A stretch of DNA of 64,000 bases from Halovenus carboxidivorans (GCF_009831575.1 NZ_WUUT01000001.1:767345-831344); one strand, 5' to 3'; numbered from the stretch's first letter, positions 4,035 through 14,009 are shown. Made by a program: numbers and translations. Notes: generated by a model not told the origin, from the letters alone.

Positions 4035-4832
4035 TCACTCTACCCGTTTGTGCAGTTCCCCCTTGATCGCGAGGGTGTCGAAACTGTGATCGGGGCGGAT
4101 GTTGACGAAATCCAGGAATCCTTCCGCGGAGACGAGCACGTCGCTGTCGTAGTACTCCGCCGCCACGCTGACGGTCGGCCCGGCCCCGATGATCGGTTCC
4201 AGCGCGGCGAGCGCGCAGGCGATATCGTAGGCTCGGGCGTCCGCGATGCCGTCGGCGTCGACCTTCGTCGCGTCGATAAAATACAGCTCTCCGTCGGCGA
4301 CGAGCACGTTTTCGGCACGGAGGTCGCCGTGGACGAGTTCCGCCTCGTGCATACGCGCAAGCGCACCGAACAGTTCCGGGGCGAACGATTCGACGGTTTC
4401 GGGGGCCAGTTCGTCAAGCGTCTGGAAGTCGGGCAGATATTCGAGCACCACGATCCCGTAGCCCTCGTGCTCGAACGCTTCCAGCGGCTCGGGGACGTTG
4501 ACGCCCAGCTCGCGCATCTTTCGGGTCGATTCGAGTTCGTGTTCCGCCATCGCGGACGGCGTCCCGAACCGCTGGAAGAACCCCTCCGAACCGCTGGCGA
4601 ACACCCCGACGTTTCGACCGGTGGTCAACAGCCCGTGAACGAGGGTATTTTGCCCGCTGATAATCTTGATGAAGAACTGCTCGTTGACGACCGCCGGGGT
4701 CGAAAGCCAGTTGTCGGCGTCGAGTAGACGAACACACTCGAAGGACTCGCCGTGGCGGTCGGCGGTTTCCTCGCCGACGGATTCGAGTTGCTCGTCGGGC
4801 ACGTTCCCCCTGAGCAGGTCGCGGATTGCCAT
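4035..4832 (-). CDS. RIO/Bud32-like protein kinase
   Basis: A 265-residue atypical kinase. The putative ATP lysine is K56 (FFIKII), the catalytic loop is HGDLRAENVL (D170, N175), and the metal-binding Asp is D187 in FIDATK, as in RIO and Bud32 kinases where IDA/IDF replaces DFG. The N-lobe carries a glycine-poor loop around residues 75-90 (FASGSEGFFQRFG). No activation segment or substrate-binding lobe is seen, as expected for the family. Substrate unknown; it stands alone rather than fused to Kae1, so it is not the KEOPS kinase in its usual haloarchaeal form. Confidence 0.75.
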   Translation of the reverse strand: MAIRDLLRGNVPDEQLESVGEETADRHGESFECVRLLDADNWLSTPAVVNEQFFIKIISGQNTLVHGLLTTGRNVGVFASGSEGFFQRFGTPSAMAEHELESTRKMRELGVNVPEPLEAFEHEGYGIVVLEYLPDFQTLDELAPETVESFAPELFGALARMHEAELVHGDLRAENVLVADGELYFIDATKVDADGIADARAYDIACALAALEPIIGAGPTVSVAAEYYDSDVLVSAEGFLDFVNIRPDHSFDTLAIKGELHKRVE

Positions 4833-5033: not shown

Positions 5034-5053
5034 ACGGAGCCAGTTGGCTCCGT
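5034..5053. repeat. 20-base inverted repeat in divergent intergenic region
   Basis: ACGGAGCCA and its exact reverse complement TGGCTCCGT are separated by GT. It lies in the 370-base gap between the divergent kinase (start 4832) and HalX (start about 5203) genes. It could be an operator or the first stem of a small RNA, since a TATA-like TACTTATTT lies about 25 bases to its left. The rest of the gap up to about 4980 shows nothing I recognise; a 64-codon minus-strand reading frame there has no coding character. Confidence 0.6.
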
Positions 5054-5065
5054 AGTGTCACACGC

Positions 5066-5082
5066 TGGGGGTCCTACCCCCA
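5066..5082. repeat. Second perfect hairpin (7-bp stem, 3-base loop), followed by CTTTTCCCC
   Basis: TGGGGGT-CCT-ACCCCCA forms a stable GC stem followed on the plus strand by CTTTTCCCC. No annotated gene ends here, so it is not an obvious gene terminator. Together with the inverted repeat 13 bases upstream it could be a short structured RNA. Confidence 0.55.
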
Positions 5083-5161
5083 CTTTTCCCCTGTGCAGTC
5101 TGGTAGTGACATCTCAGTTCTTATTGTTCAAGCATACAGTACTATTGGAAATTTCGTACGA

Positions 5162-5173
5162 GTATAATAAGTA
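5162..5173 (+). promoter_or_regulatory. Promoter of the HalX response regulator
   Basis: GTATAATAAGTA within an AT-rich run (5160-5180) is centred about 36 bases before the ATG at 5203, giving a predicted leader of roughly 7-10 bases. Confidence 0.5.
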
Positions 5174-5202
5174 ATAATAGATTAGCAACCTACTGCTTGA
5201 TG

Positions 5203-5775
5203 ATGACCGATTCTGGTATCCTGATCGTCGACGACGAACCAGAGGTGGTGGACACGTACAGGCAACATCTGGCCGACACCTACACTGTTCGCACCGCCCA
5301 GTCAGGCGAGGAAGCACTGGCGCTTCTGGATGACACAATTGATATTGTATTACTTGATCGGCGGATGCCGGGAATGAGCGGCGACGAGGTTCTCGAACGA
5401 GTTCGCGAACGATCGATCGACTGTCGGGTCGTGATGGTGACAGCCGTCGATCCGGATATCGATATTGTCACGATGGAGTTTGACGAGTACCTCGTTAAAC
5501 CGGTGTCAGGAGACGACCTACGGGAAACAGTCGAACGGTTACGAAGACGAACCCAGTTGGACGCTCAAATCCAGCGGATCGTCGAACTTGGCTCGAAACT
5601 GGCGACGCTTGAGGCTAAACTGGAGTACGAACAACTCGAACAGAGCGAGCGGTACGACGAATTGCGCGAGGAATTCAACCGCCTCAGAGAGGACACGAAG
5701 CTCGACGATATCGACGATCCCTATCTCGAAGCGACCGTCGAAAACATCGAAGCTCTCCTGCCGGACCGGCTGTAG
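5203..5775 (+). CDS. HalX-domain response regulator
   Basis: A CheY-like receiver followed by a HalX domain, the common haloarchaeal layout; 190 residues from ATG 5203. In-frame starts also lie at 5197 (TTG) and 5200 (ATG). The acidic pair D10-D11, phosphoacceptor D52 (VLLDRRMPG) and conserved lysine (LVKP, near residue 99) are intact, so it should be phosphorylatable. The C-terminal 80 residues are helical and coiled-coil-like with no obvious DNA-binding motif. No histidine kinase is in the window. It precedes the secreted-protein/rhomboid pair and may regulate the accessory block (inference). Confidence 0.9.
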   Translation: MTDSGILIVDDEPEVVDTYRQHLADTYTVRTAQSGEEALALLDDTIDIVLLDRRMPGMSGDEVLERVRERSIDCRVVMVTAVDPDIDIVTMEFDEYLVKPVSGDDLRETVERLRRRTQLDAQIQRIVELGSKLATLEAKLEYEQLEQSERYDELREEFNRLREDTKLDDIDDPYLEATVENIEALLPDRL

Positions 5776-5860
5776 TGGGGGTCTGGGGCTCCCAGAGACG
5801 GATCAGGGAACCTAATACTAACTCGATCGGCGGTGACTCTTCGCGAAGGGCCGTCTGAGT

Positions 5861-6847
5861 ATGAGGCGATCCGCACTCGTGATCTGCGTCTCTTTCAGCC
5901 TTTGTTTACTGCTGTTTCCGACGGCGGGCACCCCGGCGGCACAACGGGCGACGACGGATGACGTTCGTCTCTCTCAGACTGGAGTCCACGACGGGGTTTA
6001 TACCAGCTACACCACTGATGGACAGCTTCGCGTCGACATTGGGTCGGAGGGACACGGCCTCAATGATGACGCGATTGTTACGTTCGACCGTCTCATAGAG
6101 TTAACATACACTGGATCGGGCTCCGCGACGGTCTGGTTGGAGACTCCCGTTTCTGATGGGTACTTCTATCGTAGCTCGGATCCCGAAGACCGGGTCGACA
6201 GTAGGGCTGCTGGCGTGACCCTCACGAGCGGTGAAAGCGTGCTACTCGGACTCCGTCTCGATACGACCGAAATCGACTCTGAACTTGAACAGATCGGTGG
6301 GTTCCAGGTCGTGATCAGCATCTCTGAGGCTCGGACAGATAACCCGGGGGAGGTTCCTGCTGATACAGGAGGCTCCGCTGACGACCCTGAGACCGGTTCG
6401 GGTGATACCAGCGGGACAGATTCCAACGAAACAGACTCCGACAATACCGAGTCCGACAAGAGAGATTCTGGCGAAACAGACTCCGGGGACTCGGGTTCCG
6501 GGAGCGCCAATAACGCAAATGAGACTCCGCCGGAACCTGTTGAGGACGATCGGAATGCGACTGTTGGGATAATAACACAAGTTCCATTTGCGGGCGTTTC
6601 AAACGCTATCGCTTTAGACCTCGGTGATAGCGCGGACGACCACAGCCCGGGCGACAACGGTTCCGAATCGGTCGTGACCGGAGCGGAAACTGGATCTGTA
6701 ACCGCACCCGGGACAACTCCGGAGACCGTTCAGACCACGCTTGGCAGTATTAGGTGGGTTCTGCTTCTAGTCTCGGGACTGGTCTGCGGCGCGGTGGGAG
6801 CGGCACTGGTGCGACTTTTCTTCAATATGGAATTTAAAAAATACTGA
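5861..6847 (+). CDS. Secreted single-pass (type I) membrane protein, Ser/Asp/Thr-rich stalk
   Basis: 328 residues: a Sec-type signal peptide (about 1-27, ending TAGTPAAQ), an extracellular beta-rich domain to about 165, resembling the short secreted proteins downstream (a strand, FDRLIELTYTGSGSATVWLE-like, near residues 75-95), then a Ser/Asp/Thr/Glu/Gly-rich stalk (about 165-225), and a C-terminal membrane helix rich in small residues (SGLVCGAVGAALV) with a short FKKY-type tail. There is no PGF-CTERM signal, so it is not an archaeosortase substrate. Its stop is 6 bases before the rhomboid start, so the pair is co-transcribed. Function unknown. Confidence 0.7.
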   Translation: MRRSALVICVSFSLCLLLFPTAGTPAAQRATTDDVRLSQTGVHDGVYTSYTTDGQLRVDIGSEGHGLNDDAIVTFDRLIELTYTGSGSATVWLETPVSDGYFYRSSDPEDRVDSRAAGVTLTSGESVLLGLRLDTTEIDSELEQIGGFQVVISISEARTDNPGEVPADTGGSADDPETGSGDTSGTDSNETDSDNTESDKRDSGETDSGDSGSGSANNANETPPEPVEDDRNATVGIITQVPFAGVSNAIALDLGDSADDHSPGDNGSESVVTGAETGSVTAPGTTPETVQTTLGSIRWVLLLVSGLVCGAVGAALVRLFFNMEFKKY

Positions 6848-6853
6848 TAATAT

Positions 6854-7699
6854 ATGGCTAAAGTGAGTTCAGCCATCGACGACGGTGGATTTTGGCACGC
6901 GGTGGCAGCGGCGAGTCACCTGGCCGATATTGCGGCAATCATCTCGATCCCACTGTTTCTTGTCGGAATCTTCTTCCTTCCGCCCTCGATTCGGGAATCG
7001 TTCGTCTTCGAAACAGCTAACCCGACTGTTCAGGCAGCATATGGCTCACACTTCGTCCACCGACAGCAGTTCCACCTTCTTGGAAACCTCTCAGTGTATC
7101 TTCTCGTCGTACCGATTACTTATCTGCTCTGTCTCCTCGGCGGTCGTCGACAACTGTTCTGGATTACTTTCACGGTGTTACTCACGCTCTTCCCGATTGT
7201 CCTTTCGGTGATGCAACTTCTTTTTCCGCGTCATCGCAGTATCTTGGGATTTTCGGGGATCAACGCGGGATTTTTCGGGTTCCTCTGTGTCGCGTGGGTT
7301 TTATACGCCGGACAACGGTTCATTGGGTCCACCAGTATCCGGTATGCCCCAGCGATCCCACTCCTGTTGACCGGTGTCATCGCACTGATCACCCTTCCGG
7401 ACAGGGCGTGGCGCTTGGAGATTGCTGCCGCGTCGATCATGCTCGGCTCACTGTATGTCTTACTTTGGATAACAAACACCGAGAACCTGTCAAACAACCG
7501 AATACGCGCGGGGCTTACCCGGTTCGGATTCGCTGAACTCGCCGGAGCCGGGTTCGGGCTGCTCGTCTCGTATCCGTTCGTCGGGTTCCGATCAGTTGTT
7601 ACTGCCCGTTCGGGGGTGCTTGACGTGTATATTCACTTACTCGGCTACTCGCTGGCGTTCATTGTGGTCTTCGTGTACGTCACGGTTGTTGAGCAGTAA
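6854..7699 (+). CDS. Rhomboid-family intramembrane serine protease
   Basis: A 281-residue protein with about 7 membrane helices. It has the rhomboid fingerprint: H69-x4-H74-x3-N78 (HRQQFHLLGN) in the second helix, GFSG with nucleophile S134, and H261 in HLLGYSLA of the last helix, matching the GlpG arrangement of H145/H150/N154, S201 and H254. The catalytic dyad therefore appears intact. Overall similarity to bacterial rhomboids is low, so automated annotation may leave it hypothetical. It follows the single-pass protein by 6 bases, making that protein a candidate substrate (inference). It is convergent with the DUF7344 gene, one base apart. Confidence 0.72.
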   Translation: MAKVSSAIDDGGFWHAVAAASHLADIAAIISIPLFLVGIFFLPPSIRESFVFETANPTVQAAYGSHFVHRQQFHLLGNLSVYLLVVPITYLLCLLGGRRQLFWITFTVLLTLFPIVLSVMQLLFPRHRSILGFSGINAGFFGFLCVAWVLYAGQRFIGSTSIRYAPAIPLLLTGVIALITLPDRAWRLEIAAASIMLGSLYVLLWITNTENLSNNRIRAGLTRFGFAELAGAGFGLLVSYPFVGFRSVVTARSGVLDVYIHLLGYSLAFIVVFVYVTVVEQ

Positions 7700-7700
7700 C

Positions 7701-8303
7701 TCAGCCACTCGCGCCGGGGGGTTCGTCGTTCGCACCCAACCGCATCTCAGTTCTGCTGATATATAGATGCGCCAGCGACGTGGCCAGAAATGTCGTCGCG
7801 ACGAACACTGCTATCTCGACCCCAGACAGTACGCTAACTACCGGGAGTTCGAGCGCGACAAATCCGACTACGGCGATGTTCACGAGTGCGAGTGCAGTGT
7901 AAAAAAGACTCCACGGGACCTCTCGTCCGCTGACGACTTCCATATACACCTCAACCTCTTCGGCTGCAGGCCCGATGGCCACCGTCCCTTCCCGGTCGTC
8001 GAAATCCACGACACCCATCTCATCCATCCGGGGCAGGTGGACCTGCTGGAGGGACGTATAAACTCGTTTACGTTGGTCGTAGGATATCTCTTCTCGTGGA
8101 ATCTCGTTCTCCCACGCCGCGACCTGTTCGGCCAACTCTCCCAGTTCGATCCCGTCTTCGGCCTGTTGGAGGCGATGAAGCGTAAATCGACGCCGGTGAT
8201 TGCTCAGTAGCTCGAAACACTCGTCGTGTGTCATCGTCTCGTCTTCGCCGGAGCGGGTGGCAGGATCTTGGGTGATACTCATCCTCCTGTACATGTCTGA
8301 CAT
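7701..8303 (-). CDS. DUF7344-type winged-helix protein with two membrane helices
   Basis: 200 residues. An N-terminal winged helix-turn-helix (about 24-110: ECFELLSNHRRRFTLHRL, then LAEQVAAWEN and QVHLPRMDEMGVVDFD) is followed by two membrane helices (about 130-175). This architecture is a haloarchaeal family of membrane-tethered putative transcription regulators often found near secreted-protein genes. The first ATG (8303) is used; the internal ATG seven codons later is less likely because a GGAGG runs directly into it. Confidence 0.8.
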   Translation of the reverse strand: MSDMYRRMSITQDPATRSGEDETMTHDECFELLSNHRRRFTLHRLQQAEDGIELGELAEQVAAWENEIPREEISYDQRKRVYTSLQQVHLPRMDEMGVVDFDDREGTVAIGPAAEEVEVYMEVVSGREVPWSLFYTALALVNIAVVGFVALELPVVSVLSGVEIAVFVATTFLATSLAHLYISRTEMRLGANDEPPGASG

Positions 8304-8518
8304 CGGTCGTCTGTAGCATAAATCAATCTAGTAATATCAAAATCATAAATGAAAATCACACGAATTAGTGTACGTGTAGTTATTATACAAACAAACAACC
8401 GCAACACGAAATATATTGTAATAAAAATATAAATATAATGCAACAGAGCGTTACCGAATTATATCTGTTAGCTGTTGCTAACATTCGTGTAAACTCACCC
8501 GAAAATCTCTTGCGTTCG

Positions 8519-8883
8519 TCAGGGGTACACAGGTGCCAACACGTCCGCGAGCTTCCCCCCGTTCGCGGTCGCGTTGATCGTCACTGTCTGACCGTGAGTA
8601 CAGAACTGCCGGACCTACCGAGCGGGTTGACGACGGGTTCGACGTCGACGCGTGCGACAACGCCGAGTTCGACTGCGGCGGTATCGATCCCACCGTCAAC
8701 CTGTGGCTGGCGCTGTCCCTCTCGAGGGGTTGGCTTCCCTACGTTGCTATTGAACTCTGCGAGACTGATCGCACGCGCATCGTCGCCGCTACCCAGTCAC
8801 GATCCGAGCACCGATGCACCGCTTGCCGCCGCCGCCCCGAGGCCGATGATGTAACGTCGTCGTTTCGTAGGCTCGAGTCCCAC
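8519..8883 (-). pseudogene. Broken secreted-protein gene (remnant of the short-secreted-protein family)
   Basis: Reading from GTG 8883 gives an N-terminus like those of the two upstream genes (KRRRYIIGLGAAAASGASVLGS), then an in-frame TGA at 8799-8797 exactly where the paralogues read GSGAF. The frame continues as sensible protein (AEFNSNVGKPTPREGQ, VDGGIDTAAVELGVVA) to about 8590, where a one-base shift is needed to reach NATANGGKLADVLAPVYP and the final TGA at 8519. At least two lesions are therefore present. It lies 20 bases after the stop of the 9446-8904 gene, as the third gene of that operon. Confidence 0.65.
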
Positions 8884-8903
8884 GTGAGGCCGACCCGGTC
8901 AAC

Positions 8904-9446
8904 TCAATCCCGATTCCCGCCAACACGCTCGGCGACGATCGTCAGTTCTTCCTCGAACTCGCCGGGATCAGAACCGTGCGTATCGATCTGCAGTCCGACC
9001 GCGATGCTGTCGCCGACCCCGAGTGCGGGTGGATCCTCGCGGAGAACGCCGCTGTCGGTAACAAGTGCGAGGTCGGCGAAGGCGTCGCCGTCGTAGGTGC
9101 TCGACAGCGTGACCGGTTGCGTGCCTTGATTGTGGACTTCCAGGAGGTCGTGGAACTCGTAGACGGAGTCGAGTCCGACGCCACCGGCCGCGGAGTTTTC
9201 GCCGTTGTCGTCGCCCGGAATCTCGAATTCGACTTGACGACCGTTGGTGGACGACCGTCCGGTGGCCTCTCCGTCGATGCCCTCTTTGACGAGTGGCTCC
9301 ATCCGGAGAAACGCCCGGTCGTCGTCCGCGACGGAGATAGAGATCTTTCGCTCGGCGCTGACGCTGGTGAACGCGCCGGACCCGAGTATCGATACGGCAC
9401 CGACTGTCGCTGCCCCAGCGCCGATGATGAGTTGTCGTCGGTTCAT
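8904..9446 (-). CDS. DUF1102-like secreted protein
   Basis: A 180-residue exported protein. The N-terminus (NRRQLIIGAGAATVG) combines a twin arginine and a short hydrophobic stretch, then GSGAFTSVSAERKISISVADDD, the family's typical boundary between signal and mature domain. The mature part is a small beta-sandwich-like domain including VHNQGTQPVTLS and ending in a strand (EELTIVAE). No membrane helix follows, so it is released or assembled at the surface. A signal peptidase of the SipW/ER type lies 2.2 kb away and is a plausible processing enzyme. Confidence 0.75.
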   Translation of the reverse strand: MNRRQLIIGAGAATVGAVSILGSGAFTSVSAERKISISVADDDRAFLRMEPLVKEGIDGEATGRSSTNGRQVEFEIPGDDNGENSAAGGVGLDSVYEFHDLLEVHNQGTQPVTLSSTYDGDAFADLALVTDSGVLREDPPALGVGDSIAVGLQIDTHGSDPGEFEEELTIVAERVGGNRD

Positions 9447-9517
9447 GGATGTCTCCGTATTTGTCGATCAGTCCCTCCGTGTGTAGGACAGGAGCTGATT
9501 GTGTCGATTACTGGGAG

Positions 9518-10204
9518 TCACTCTCCCTGTCCATCGTAACTACTGGGGACGACGGTCGCATCAGCGACGAGTTGGATCGTCTCGGACACGCTCACATCCG
9601 AGTCGGCAGTGTTGACGTATATGCCGAAATCGAAGGACTCGCCAGCTTCCAGCACGAACTCCTCTGTGGCGTCAGCAGTTCCCTGTTCCGCATCGGAGAC
9701 ATACGCACTGTACTCGTACGGAGGGTTGCTAAACACCCCAGTCAGGGAGATCTGATCGTCTTCGACACCGCCACTGATTCCGGAAGTGTTCACATAGTCG
9801 CCGTTCGGTCGGTTGGACGCCTGTGGGTCAATTCCGAAGCCATCGGAGGTCGTCGGATTCTCAATGGAGGAGGGGTCGACGTACACGACCACAGGCTGAG
9901 TTCCCTGGTTTCGAACCTTGAAAATGTCGTTGATTTGGGTTGTCGAGTTCCTGTTCACGCCGGTACCCTCGACGCCCGCATCACTGTCGAGATTGATTGT
10001 AACTGCACCGCTACCAGCATTGCTAGCGTACGCTTGATTCGTCGAATTTGACGGATCCAGTGCCAGGAATGCATCGTTGTCTGCCGCCGTGGAGACGGAC
10101 ACCGTGCGATCCGCTTGCACGCTGGTGAATGCGCCGCTTCCCAATGCAGCCGCCCCGCCGGCGGCGAGCGATCCTGCGCCGATCAAGAACTTGCGTCGTT
10201 CCAT
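9518..10204 (-). CDS. DUF1102-like secreted protein (second copy)
   Basis: 228 residues from ATG 10204, which has GGTGA 9 bases upstream; a GTG at 10216 is in frame but less likely. The signal region ERRKFLIGAGSLAAGGAAA leads to GSGAFTSVQADRTVSVS, clearly paralogous to the next gene down. The mature domain is longer, Asn/Ser/Gly-rich, with VRNQGTQPVVVYV matching VHNQGTQPVTLS in its paralogue, and ends in a strand (ETIQLVADATVV). A likely extracellular structural protein; no catalytic residues are evident. The three-gene run (this one, its paralogue, the broken copy) reads leftward. Confidence 0.75.
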   Translation of the reverse strand: MERRKFLIGAGSLAAGGAAALGSGAFTSVQADRTVSVSTAADNDAFLALDPSNSTNQAYASNAGSGAVTINLDSDAGVEGTGVNRNSTTQINDIFKVRNQGTQPVVVYVDPSSIENPTTSDGFGIDPQASNRPNGDYVNTSGISGGVEDDQISLTGVFSNPPYEYSAYVSDAEQGTADATEEFVLEAGESFDFGIYVNTADSDVSVSETIQLVADATVVPSSYDGQGE

Positions 10205-10212
10205 AGTTGTCG

Positions 10213-10431
10213 TCACCGTTGTTTGTTCGCCGCGTGCCAGCCCGCGTCACCAGCACCGGCGAACCCAACTCCACCTATACCCTCTACCCCAATTGTATCA
10301 ATCCACCTGAACAAATCCGGAGCGATATCCGTACCTGCCTGAACGCGCACAGTCTCCCACTGAGACGTCACAGGCACCCATAGAGTATGTCCGAACGGTT
10401 CTGCCGTCAAGTTCAGGCCACCTATGAACAT
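10213..10431 (-). CDS. Possible small leaderless gene upstream of the DUF1102 operon
   Basis: A 72-codon frame starts with ATG at 10431, about 35 bases after the TATA-like AAGTATAAAC on the plus strand (TTTATACTT on the minus strand), and its TGA ends 8 bases before the DUF1102 start at 10204. The position suggests a first cistron; the product (rich in Gly, with PFGHTLWVPVTSQWE) resembles nothing I know. Third-position GC is clearly lower than in flanking genes, so it may be only a transcribed leader. Confidence 0.3.
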   Translation of the reverse strand: MFIGGLNLTAEPFGHTLWVPVTSQWETVRVQAGTDIAPDLFRWIDTIGVEGIGGVGFAGAGDAGWHAANKQR

Positions 10432-10461
10432 CCGCTCGGAAGGACGGCGATAGAGTAGTAC

Positions 10462-10471
10462 AAGTATAAAC
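10462..10471 (-). promoter_or_regulatory. TATA box for the leftward DUF1102 operon
   Basis: AAGTATAAAC (minus strand GTTTATACTT) is the best leftward TATA in the 10.2-10.9 kb gap. It would place transcription start near 10440, giving either a 230-base leader to the DUF1102 gene or a short leader to the small frame at 10431. Confidence 0.45.
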
Positions 10472-10880
10472 TCTCCGTGAGCGTGTCAAGGGGGGACTGA
10501 ATCCGGACAGGCACTCAGGTGGTCTCCAGTGGCTTGTCCCCACGACAGAAGTACTGCGGGACGTTCTTGAATATCTGACCTCCCCTGAACGACGATCTCC
10601 GAACTCAATCCCTCAATATATATAAGAAATTTTGAAATTCGCCTGAATGAATTGGATATGCCAATAAACCAAGACAGCTACTGTATGGCCAGAATATAGG
10701 AACATAAAAAACACTTTCAATCAGCCCTGGTAAGATATTCGAAATTTTATGTATGTGGCTGCGAAGAGTCGTGCAAATTTATGTACGGTCGTGCTATCAG
10801 ACTCAGACGTGGTAGCCCGACTGCACTGGGTCCACATCCGAAATCACACGGCGAGTCACTCAACACAGTAATCTGATCGC
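10472..10880. other. AT-rich divergent intergenic region
   Basis: Non-coding gap between the leftward DUF1102 operon and the rightward gene at 10881. It is much richer in A/T than its surroundings (about 10610-10790), with TATATAAGAAATTTTGAAATT near 10617 and AAATTTATGTACGG near 10775, the latter a possible rightward promoter leaving a leader near 80 bases. No convincing coding frame, tRNA or hairpin is seen. Confidence 0.5.
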
Positions 10881-11618
10881 ATGAATCCCCTTCGCATGTC
10901 GAGTGTCGTGCTCGTGGTCATCGCGGGAGTGCTGTTACTCTCCGGTACGTTCGGGTTCACCGCGACGACAGCCGACCGCGGTATCTCGGTCGCCGTCGCC
11001 AACGACAGCAAAGCGTTCATCGGATACGAAGCGCACGAACCGGAAGGTGTGAGGGCAGGTCAGGGGGTCGACATTATTGAAATAAAAAACCGATTCGCTC
11101 AGAATATCAGCGTGACGCATGTAAGACTGTCCGTGTCCGAGGAGGGCATCAACCTCACAGATCCGTCGACTCCGGAGAGGGTTGAGCCGGGTCACTCCGC
11201 AACAATTGAGGCGGAAGTTGCCTCCTGTGACCGCGGAGCCAGCGGAACTGTGACCGCGGAAGTCACAGTAAAGGGTGAGGATGTGAGTGCGACACTGGCC
11301 GACGGCGACAGCGAGGGTGTCGAACGGTCGTTCACTGTGACGTGTGCCGAACGCGACTCCCAGAGTGGCGGCGAACTGATTAAGTATTCCGGAAACGGTG
11401 GTGCTCAGCTAAAGACGGACGTGAGTCGAAATGCGACGGTCACATTCGTGGATAGAGACGGGAACCAAAGGAGTCAGTCCGGGAGCTTCCGACCCAACAT
11501 GAATCTTAAAAACCAACTCGATGAACATGCAAGCAGCCAGAACACGATTGTCTGTGTCGAAATCGACAGCGATCAGTATCCGAATCCGAACCTCAATAAC
11601 CCCTGCCCAGACAAATAG
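10881..11618 (+). CDS. Secreted protein of the same short-secreted-protein family
   Basis: 245 residues. The N-terminal hydrophobic helix (about 5-28, VVLVVIAGVLLLSG) ends in GTFGFTATTADRGISVAVANDS, the same signal/mature boundary pattern as the leftward DUF1102-like genes. The mature domain has an Ig-like beta pattern (VDIIEIKNRFAQNISVTHVRL) and two Cys (in ASCDRG and VTCAER) that could pair, plus a C-terminal region with further Cys. It is 63 bases before the signal peptidase gene and co-directional, which suggests it is a substrate. Confidence 0.7.
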   Translation: MNPLRMSSVVLVVIAGVLLLSGTFGFTATTADRGISVAVANDSKAFIGYEAHEPEGVRAGQGVDIIEIKNRFAQNISVTHVRLSVSEEGINLTDPSTPERVEPGHSATIEAEVASCDRGASGTVTAEVTVKGEDVSATLADGDSEGVERSFTVTCAERDSQSGGELIKYSGNGGAQLKTDVSRNATVTFVDRDGNQRSQSGSFRPNMNLKNQLDEHASSQNTIVCVEIDSDQYPNPNLNNPCPDK

Positions 11619-11681
11619 ACTGCCTCACGTTATGATCGCTGACTCAGGTGACACTGTTGGCTCGAGGAACTCACCTCTGAC

Positions 11682-12806
11682 TTGATGAAAATTCGACACG
11701 CTCTCTGGGTTGCCGCTCAGATCATACTCGTTGTCGTTGTTCTCGCGCTGTTAGTCGGTCAGTTTCTCGGCCAACCGGTCCTGCTGAGTTACGTCACGAC
11801 CGACAGCATGGAGCCAACAATTGACGTGGGTGACGGCTTTATCGCAGTCCCGCCGGAACTGGCCGGCGACGTGAGCGAGGGCGATGTCATCGTCTTCGAG
11901 GCCGAGGAGATCCAGGGCGGCGGGCTGACGACCCACCGGGTCGTTGACGAGACCGAGGAGGGGTACATCACGCGGGGCGACAACAACCCCTTCACCGATC
12001 AGGACGCCGACGAACCCCCCGTTTCTGAGACACAGATCCGTGCCGTCGCGTGGCAACCCGGCGGTTCTGTGCTGACGATCCCGTTTCTCGGGACGGCGGT
12101 GATGTGGCTCCAGTCGACGATTAACTCGGTTCAACTCCGACTCGCCCAGGCGCTCGGGACGCGCGCCCTGCTCGGGACACAGGGTATTGCCTACCTCATG
12201 CTCGGGGTTTCTGTCGTGCTGTACGTGGCTGCAGGTCGGTTCGAGTCCGACAAGAACCGGGAGCGAGATCTGAGTCGGGAAACGGGAACCAGTTCGCACA
12301 AATTTGTGGCCCTCCTGACGCTAATCGTCGTCGCCGGCGTCACGGCGGCGATGGTCGTTCCTGCGGAGTCACAGGAGTTCGGTATCGTCAGCGCGGAGTT
12401 CGAGAGCGATTCGCCGACGGTCATCGAGCAGGGAACAAATGAGTCGTTCAATTACTCCGTGCGGAATACTGGCGTCCTCCCTACCGTTGTCTTTCTCGAA
12501 CCGGCCGGCACACGAATCGATACAGAACCGCGACAGATCAATCTCGACGGCCGATCGGCCGCGAACGCGACAGTGACGATTTCTGCACCGGAGGAAACCG
12601 GTTCGTATCGCGCATTCGTCCAGCAGTACCGCTATCTTGGCGTTCTCCCCTCGCCAGTTCTCGAGCAACTGTACCGAATCCATCCGTGGGTTCCGATTGT
12701 CGTCATCGATGCCGTTGTCGCAGTCCCGTTCTACTTGATCGGCATCCGGTTGCTCGGCGGAAGTAGATTTAGAGATCGATCCCGGTCACGAGGGTCGTGG
12801 TGGTGA
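11682..12806 (+). CDS. SipW/ER-type signal peptidase I with C-terminal membrane domain
   Basis: 374 residues. After a first membrane helix (about 8-30) come the nucleophile S42 (TTDSMEPTI) and H85 (GLTTHRV), so it is a Ser-His peptidase of the SipW/eukaryotic SEC11 class rather than Ser-Lys, followed by the box E-like YITRGDNNPF with D100. Beyond residue 130 the protein extends past a typical archaeal signal peptidase: a helix (about 165-183), a second (about 205-222), an extracellular Ig-like domain (about 230-315) and a final helix (about 335-355). Such extended forms are usual beside DUF5305 genes. Probable role: cleaving signal peptides of the secreted proteins here. Confidence 0.85.
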   Translation: MMKIRHALWVAAQIILVVVVLALLVGQFLGQPVLLSYVTTDSMEPTIDVGDGFIAVPPELAGDVSEGDVIVFEAEEIQGGGLTTHRVVDETEEGYITRGDNNPFTDQDADEPPVSETQIRAVAWQPGGSVLTIPFLGTAVMWLQSTINSVQLRLAQALGTRALLGTQGIAYLMLGVSVVLYVAAGRFESDKNRERDLSRETGTSSHKFVALLTLIVVAGVTAAMVVPAESQEFGIVSAEFESDSPTVIEQGTNESFNYSVRNTGVLPTVVFLEPAGTRIDTEPRQINLDGRSAANATVTISAPEETGSYRAFVQQYRYLGVLPSPVLEQLYRIHPWVPIVVIDAVVAVPFYLIGIRLLGGSRFRDRSRSRGSWW

Positions 12807-12842
12807 TAAACATGAACTCAAATTGTGCTACACAGGATCGTA

Positions 12843-12850
12843 GAGGTGAT
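12843..12850 (+). promoter_or_regulatory. Shine-Dalgarno that decides the DUF5305 start
   Basis: GAGGTGAT matches the anti-16S complement (GGAGGTGATC) and lies 7 bases before the ATG at 12858, favouring that start over the in-frame GTG 12825 and ATG 12849. Confidence 0.6.
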
Positions 12851-12857
12851 GGGACCG

Positions 12858-14009
12858 ATGAATAAGTGGCTCGGACAGCTACGTCTTCGCCTTCACGACA
12901 ATACGACAGCGTTCGTCGTTGCTCTTACAGTTCTCGTCCTTGCCGGCGGTGCCGTAACGTACAGCACGCACATCAGTCCCGGGACTGAAATCGAACAGCG
13001 AGAGACGGCGACGTGGAGTTCGACTGCGATGTATACGCACGAGGCTACGGTCCAAACTGAGACGCCGGTCTTCACCGAGAATCAGACCTTGTCGGACCGC
13101 AGTGTCTATCTGCGGTCGGTTGCTCCCGAACTCGACGGGCGCTTTGTATACGGCTATCAGGCATCCGAAAGCGGAACACTCTCGGCAAATGCCACGGTCA
13201 CACTCGTGACCCGCTCGGTCAACGAAGAGGTAGAACTCTGGCGCGAGGAGCGCCAGTTGGCGACGGGGGTCGAGCAGTCACTCGGCCCCGGTGAGGAGTT
13301 TGTCGTCCCGTTCACAATCAACATGACCGAACAGCAGCAGCGGGTGGCCAGCATCGAGAATCAACTTGGCGGCACGCCGGGCGAGACGGAGTTCACTGTT
13401 CGGACACGTCTTACCCTCACAGGTGAACGGAACGGTGCCCCAGTCGAACAGACGAGCACGTATACGTTTTCTATCGACACCAATGGCCAAACCTACAGTG
13501 TCACGGGTGCCACGCCCGAACGAGCGGACGGCGAACAGACCGAACAGTACCGCGTGACTGCGAGTTACGGTCCGATCCGCTCGGTCGGTGGACCGGTCCT
13601 ACTCGCGGGTTCACTGCTCTGTCTCGTCGGCTTTGCCGTGCTGCACCTAACTGGGTCGCTGGCACTCTCTGACGTTGAGCGGGAGTGGCTTGCGTTCCGC
13701 TCCGACGCTCAGACCTTCGATGAGTGGATCACACGCGGAACGCTCTCTGTGGACGAGACCGTTACGAGACGGATCGACGTTGATTCACTGGAGGGATTAG
13801 TCGACGTAGCAATCGATAGCAACCGTCGAGTCATTCTCGACGAGTCCCGCGGTCTCTTTGTCGTTCTGCTCGAGGAAACTGTTTATCAGTACGATCCGCC
13901 GAGCTTTCCGGGTGACGGTCAACTCGCCGCGCCAGGGACTCCGACGAGTACGGCACCTGATGACAGGGCAGACGGCCCCGACGAAGACAATGACAACGAG
14001 GCGACGTAA
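12858..14009 (+). CDS. DUF5305 membrane protein, signal-peptidase partner
   Basis: 383 residues from ATG 12858. A membrane helix (about 17-35) is followed by a large extracellular beta-rich domain (to about 240), a second helix (about 245-268, VGGPVLLAGSLLCLVGFAVL) and a cytoplasmic tail beginning LSDVEREWLAFRSDAQTFDEWITRG, as expected for DUF5305 proteins, which regularly follow SipW-type signal peptidases in haloarchaea. Molecular function is unknown. The gene begins 51 bases after the peptidase stop, so the two are one operon. Confidence 0.85.
   Translation: MNKWLGQLRLRLHDNTTAFVVALTVLVLAGGAVTYSTHISPGTEIEQRETATWSSTAMYTHEATVQTETPVFTENQTLSDRSVYLRSVAPELDGRFVYGYQASESGTLSANATVTLVTRSVNEEVELWREERQLATGVEQSLGPGEEFVVPFTINMTEQQQRVASIENQLGGTPGETEFTVRTRLTLTGERNGAPVEQTSTYTFSIDTNGQTYSVTGATPERADGEQTEQYRVTASYGPIRSVGGPVLLAGSLLCLVGFAVLHLTGSLALSDVEREWLAFRSDAQTFDEWITRGTLSVDETVTRRIDVDSLEGLVDVAIDSNRRVILDESRGLFVVLLEETVYQYDPPSFPGDGQLAAPGTPTSTAPDDRADGPDEDNDNEAT

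Follow-up and report, generated by a model that had tools for sequence, protein, structure and literature searches.

We examined positions 5203-14009 of a 64,000-nucleotide window (the whole stretch of DNA analysed) from Halovenus carboxidivorans, and found nine intact genes and one broken gene which, read together as a pathway, very probably make a divergent, tafi-type Tat-fimbria. Tat-fimbriae (tafi) are a thin haloarchaeal surface fibre described only in 2025 (Galeva et al. 2025, iScience 28:111793, as cited in PMC12687288). The divergent tafi-like locus, with its fixed set of genes, is widespread in Halobacteria. An earlier note on this DNA, drawn up from the sequence alone, had proposed a locus for the export of surface fibres. 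Every gene that it named is open where it was placed, and its reading as a fibre locus with a SipW-type peptidase, donor-strand subunits and conserved gene linkage is supported, whereas the identity of the fibre has become that of a Tat-fimbria leaving through the twin-arginine (Tat) pathway.

Profile searches with the NCBIfam families for the tafi system (TafA, TafC, TafE and TafF) identified two minus-strand proteins as TafE-like, namely fimbrial subunit 1 (9518-10204, 228 residues, NF052522 at 2.3e-22), which is the candidate main subunit, and subunit 2 (8904-9446, 180 residues, NF052522 at 1.5e-15). The secreted protein encoded on the plus strand at 10881-11618 (245 residues) is TafC-like and matches NF052521 at 3.6e-16 over its N-terminal 150 residues; the TafE and TafC families match each other at 98.4% (hhalign). 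The plus-strand gene at 5861-6847 encodes a secreted protein with an N-terminal signal, a beta domain, an acidic linker and a single C-terminal transmembrane segment. The TafF model (NF052523) gave no score with this protein itself, but it belongs to a family (21-28% identity) of which 9 of 20 members match that model (best 1.8e-50), and the profile of this TafF-like family matches the TafE profile with 99.6% probability. Moreover, TafE-like subunit 1 (TafE1) alone retrieved PDB 9P0A, the Tafi pilus of Natrinema sp. J7-2, at 3.8e-15, and a profile of 56 relatives retrieved the same entry at 4.5e-34. No publication for 9P0A was found in the literature searched. The ten best matches of a fold search based on the modelled TafE1 included 9P0A and FimA, together with 7PNB (a Sulfolobus thread) and 7UEG (the Pyrobaculum bundling pilus). 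FimA, 7PNB and 7UEG are donor-strand filaments. Their donor-strand nature is treated in PMC9674648. Presumably, 9P0A is also a filament of this kind.

The export signals had been overlooked in the earlier note. A twin-arginine (RR) signal is present on both TafE-like proteins (MERRKFLIGAG in subunit 1 and MNRRQLIIGAG in subunit 2), and neither the TafC-like protein, which has a Sec-type signal without RR, nor the TafF-like protein carries one. A third TafE-like gene, a remnant on the minus strand (8797-8883, read from the sequence), still has a readable Tat signal, MGLEPTKRRRYIIGLGAAAASGASVLGS, and is stopped after 28 codons just before the GSGAF boundary. The GSGAFTSVxADR-like signal boundary that the short secreted proteins were said to share is found exactly, as GSGAFTSV.A.R, in the two TafE-like proteins; the TafC-like protein has only a related form (SGTFGFTATTADR), and the TafF-like protein has none. 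When relatives were collected by their mature domain alone, the RR motif still stood upstream of it in about 180 of the 209 distinct proteins, the exceptions seen being mostly TafF, and 128 of the 180 RR-bearing relatives had an exact GxGAF. The mature-domain profile used here is a fairer test than the TafE alignment, whose members were picked by the RR/GAF motif, though it was built from the same members. In one other locus (L097, 5135-7948), TafE-like proteins keep the GAF boundary and have lost the RR motif, which may mark a change of export route from Tat to Sec.

The boundary G-[ST]-G-A-F-T-S-V-x-A-x-R is probably a SipW-type site cut between A and F. Of the 215 residues of the 9P0A chain, 188 are in the model; provided that the 27 absent ones are N-terminal, the mature protein would begin with the Phe of GTGA|F. 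An exact cleavage site can be predicted for TafE-like subunits. The candidate enzyme is a SipW/Sec11-type signal peptidase (11682-12806, plus strand; TIGR02228 at 66 bits, above the cut-off), which carries, besides its catalytic part, an extracytoplasmic domain and additional transmembrane segments. Ser42, His85, Asp100 and Asp106 are invariant in 30 homologues, and the protein aligns with human SEC11A over the Ser42-Asp106 region, so that the Ser42/His85 pair read earlier, which takes the place of Ser-Lys, lies inside aligned motifs. It did not reach the cut-off of the SipW equivalog NF046067 (41 vs 190 bits). Another signal peptidase and other rhomboids are encoded elsewhere in the genome, and the peptidase and rhomboid of this locus thus look dedicated to it.

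These signals also bear on whether the locus might encode a biofilm matrix fibre like TasA/CalY, exported through Sec and cut by SipW. A SipW-type peptidase does adjoin short beta-rich secreted proteins, and the TasA-like bundling pilus 7UEG is listed by the fold search; the biofilm-matrix reading of the earlier note is an analogy. However, the main subunits carry Tat rather than Sec signals and are homologous in sequence to Tafi, and no Pfam, NCBIfam or PDB sequence match to TasA or Peptidase_M73 was obtained for the locus proteins. We consider a TasA-type locus improbable.

Gene company was examined in 294 Halobacteria genomes by counting from the match lists. Both TafE relatives and the SipW-type peptidase are present in 222 genomes, TafE only in 3, the peptidase only in 10 and neither in 59, with peptidase homologues in 232 of the 294. 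Near 40 peptidase genes, we found DUF5305 in 36 cases, DUF7344 in 36 (within 10 kb), TafE in 35, TafC in 22 and a rhomboid in 15; DUF5305 lies directly 3' of SipW on the same strand in 32 of these loci. The usual order is tafC, DUF7344 / tafE(1-4), tafF, rhomboid, peptidase, DUF5305. Loci that pass the Taf cut-offs contain the same SipW, DUF5305, DUF7344, TafC, TafE and TafF set plus a TafA above its cut-off; SipW, TafE and DUF7344 are present in 16 of 16 such loci and DUF5305 in 10 of 16. Linkage across Halobacteria is real for SipW, DUF5305 and DUF7344, with TafE in the place that the earlier note gave to DUF1102. DUF1102 itself was rejected as the defining family: PF06510 matched one protein only, below its gathering score (18.5 vs 22.2 bits), and none of the others, and a search of the genome at 1e-3 gave no matches. 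The relevant families are TafE, TafC and TafF. The linkage data suggest that the SipW-type peptidase, DUF5305 and DUF7344 are constant components of the tafi system and give two unnamed families, DUF5305 and DUF7344, a hypothesis of function. Halovenus rubra has both a TafE locus that passes the cut-off and a divergent variant, and its second rhomboid copy adjoins DUF5305.

Several points weigh against the Tat-fimbria identification. With a pLDDT (predicted local distance difference test) of 71, the TafE1 model is mediocre, and the fold search with it gave weak matches (best E 1.8e-3, template-modelling score 0.34-0.46). The resemblance to donor-strand filaments, 7UEG included, that the earlier note expected from structure prediction did appear, but at this modest confidence it is the sequence match that carries the argument. 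No member of the locus reached the Taf cut-offs of NCBIfam, and the TafA equivalog was not found in the genome, where the signal region alone matches (31-34 bits vs 190). That RR and GAF are invariant in the TafE alignment is by construction, since members were picked with the motif. Finally, the genes of the locus are rearranged compared with the usual operon order. Homology of the TafE- and TafC-like proteins is clear but below the equivalog cut-offs, and TafF is recognised only through its family; the locus is thus best called tafi-like, and its subunits TafE-like rather than TafE proper.

The altered order could also mean a decaying remnant whose function has been lost. The truncated third TafE gene, the degenerate TafF tail, the low G+C content at third codon positions (GC3) and the very long TafF branch (2.07 changes per column) would fit such decay; however, the nine other genes are open with lengths as in relatives, and the catalytic residues of the peptidase and rhomboid are intact, which makes decay very improbable. 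HalX, TafF and the rhomboid form a separate block in the window, in SHR40 (a member of the same genus) and in H. rubra alike. GC3 is indeed lower inside the locus (0.59-0.74) than in the flanks (0.82-0.88), and the 'lower-GC island' of the earlier note stands as a matter of composition. As evidence of transfer it does not: SHR40 has both flanks in common with the window, on the left a kinase followed by HalX-TafF-rhomboid and on the right SipW-DUF5305-PssA-GlyK, and a low GC3 is usual for TafE genes throughout the class (mean 0.62 vs 0.83 for SipW). A foreign island is therefore unproven. In SHR40, the GC3 of SipW, DUF5305, HalX and the rhomboid barely differs from that of the flanks. The left neighbour of the window locus (4035-4832, minus strand) is a RIO/Bud32-like small kinase, the same kinase that stands left of HalX-TafF-rhomboid in SHR40.

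The rhomboid and TafF had been given no place in the earlier interpretation, although the rhomboid was correctly described as intact. This intramembrane protease (6854-7699, plus strand) belongs to a tafi-type family in which Ser134 (GxSG) and His261 of the sixth transmembrane helix are invariant among 22 members; H69, H74 and N78 are conserved. Judged by sequence, this is a haloarchaeal family of its own with a weak likeness to rhombosortase: 20 of the 22 members match TIGR03902 below the cut-off (17 vs 84 bits), and rhombosortase proper was accordingly set aside. PF01694 is matched by 12 of the 22 and not by the window copy, and a PDB search with the rhomboid profile gave no matches. Scanning 84,980 genomes with this family yielded 70 loci, 67 of which had enough room for the upstream test; a tafF-like gene lies directly 5' of the rhomboid in 53 of the 67, and the peptidase directly 3' in 48 of the 70.

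Most TafF proteins next to a rhomboid have a tripartite tail at the C-terminus, made up of G[FIL][GDE], a helix and basic residues; it is found in 55 of 65 with a linked rhomboid vs 2 of 18 without one (raw Fisher p 1e-8). Among sister TafF proteins, one without a rhomboid (L108) has a longer hydrophobic C-terminal anchor, and those with one (L109, L120 and L121) have an AGFG-helix tail, so that these sisters offer a natural contrast. We tentatively propose, at just under an even chance, that many haloarchaeal tafi loci hold a rhombosortase-like system in which the rhomboid reads the G[FIL][GDE]-transmembrane-basic tail of TafF and so terminates, anchors or releases the fimbria. The low scores against rhombosortase weigh against such sorting, as does the window tail (TTLGSIRW, a transmembrane segment and a basic end), which is degenerate and falls outside the motif. 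On the tree of the TafF N-terminal domain, linkage to the rhomboid must have changed five times or more, and the lineage-corrected test found only about five supported independent contrasts, on average 2.9 in favour and 0.3 opposed, with a median p of 0.25 (not significant). With so few contrasts, the co-variation of rhomboid and tail is only suggestive, and we do not take it as proof.

An alternative of comparable standing, somewhat short of an even chance, is that the rhomboid is a general membrane-quality or regulatory protease present by chance, while archaeosortase A, or no enzyme at all, acts on the TafF tails. The scarcity of contrasts and the lack of the motif in the window would suit this explanation, and TafF tails are somewhat PGF-CTERM-like. 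Yet PGF occurs in none of the motif-bearing tails, so that a plain PGF-CTERM was rejected, and the families listed for TafF include neither PGF-CTERM nor TIGR03501 (GlyGly-CTERM), the tripartite tail being defined by pattern only. The frequent 5' position of tafF and the other rhomboids available elsewhere in the genome likewise argue against chance. If the rhombosortase-like proposal is true, it would represent an archaeal C-terminal sorting system distinct from archaeosortase, and the rhomboid-TafF pair provides a testable step in fimbria anchoring or release. In some Halorubrum and related loci (L157, L164, L165 and L196), proteins of 1,300-1,900 residues with EPAGL[GD] tails are encoded 5' of a tafi-type rhomboid, and some of these loci add a second protein of about 510-550 residues with a like tail. 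These proteins are possible further rhomboid substrates.

For the Tat-fimbria, the following assembly route can be suggested. TafE-like subunits would fold in the cytoplasm and, bearing the observed RR motif, leave through Tat, after which the dedicated SipW-type peptidase would cut them at G-[ST]-G-A|F-T-S-V. The freed N-terminus, F-T-S-V-x-A-x-R-x-V-x-V, may act as the donor strand and complete the beta-sandwich of the subunit next to it; FimA, TasA and AbpA work in this way and so, judged by homology, would the solved Tafi pilus. The TafC- and TafF-like proteins would be minor subunits, with TafF, anchored in the membrane at its C-terminus, as a candidate base protein. Linkage and the tail pattern in relatives suggest that the neighbouring rhomboid might cut TafF at or near its tail, thereby releasing or re-anchoring the fimbria. 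At the level of a guess, DUF5305 may work with the peptidase in the membrane and could be the assembly platform, and DUF7344 and HalX, going by family type, may regulate the gene set.

Both regulators named earlier were confirmed by Pfam/NCBIfam. The HalX-type response regulator (5203-5775, plus strand) combines a receiver (PF00072, 6e-21) with HalX (PF08663, 1.1e-8) and stands directly ahead of TafF-rhomboid in SHR40 and Halovenus rubra, which makes it a genus-level partner of the pair. The DUF7344 putative regulator (7701-8303, minus strand; PF24035, 3.3e-31) is probably of winged-helix type with C-terminal transmembrane segments. DUF5305 was likewise verified (12825-14009, plus strand; PF17231, 6.8e-56); it is predicted to consist of a transmembrane segment, a beta-sandwich ectodomain, another transmembrane segment and a cytoplasmic domain. 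Its AlphaFold2 model has a pLDDT of 88, and the fold search with it gave generic Ig/arrestin-like matches only, uninformative on function. The intergenic region that separates the divergently oriented TafE1 and TafC genes (10205-10880), partly AT-rich as read from the sequence, is presumed to be a promoter/control region.

Compared with known systems, the locus resembles the TasA-SipW-TapA operon of Bacillus subtilis in having a donor-strand fibre subunit with a SipW peptidase encoded beside it, and the Pyrobaculum bundling pili (AbpA, 7UEG) in the donor-strand subunit. It differs from both in its Tat signals and other accessory genes, and no sequence match to either was found. Rhombosortase and GlyGly-CTERM of Proteobacteria (TIGR03902/TIGR03501) similarly place a rhomboid beside a protein with a Gly motif, a transmembrane helix and a basic tail (PMC3237569), whereas the tafi rhomboid scores far lower, is archaeal and has mainly one operon partner, whose tail is not GlyGly-CTERM by hidden Markov model. 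The Natrinema pilus 9P0A has a subunit that is homologous across 183 residues and shares the signal and boundary, at about 20% identity in the fold alignment. The locus is like the Tat-fimbriae themselves in its TafE-, TafC- and TafF-like subunits, Tat signals and the linked SipW-type peptidase, DUF5305 and DUF7344. Unlike them, the window has Taf proteins below the cut-offs, no TafA equivalog, two TafE-like genes and a broken third, a rhomboid, and a TafF tail with a single transmembrane segment in place of the longer C-terminal anchor of over-cut-off TafF. The locus thus appears to be a less-studied variant of the known Tat-fimbria system, with an added and so far unexplained rhomboid-TafF step.

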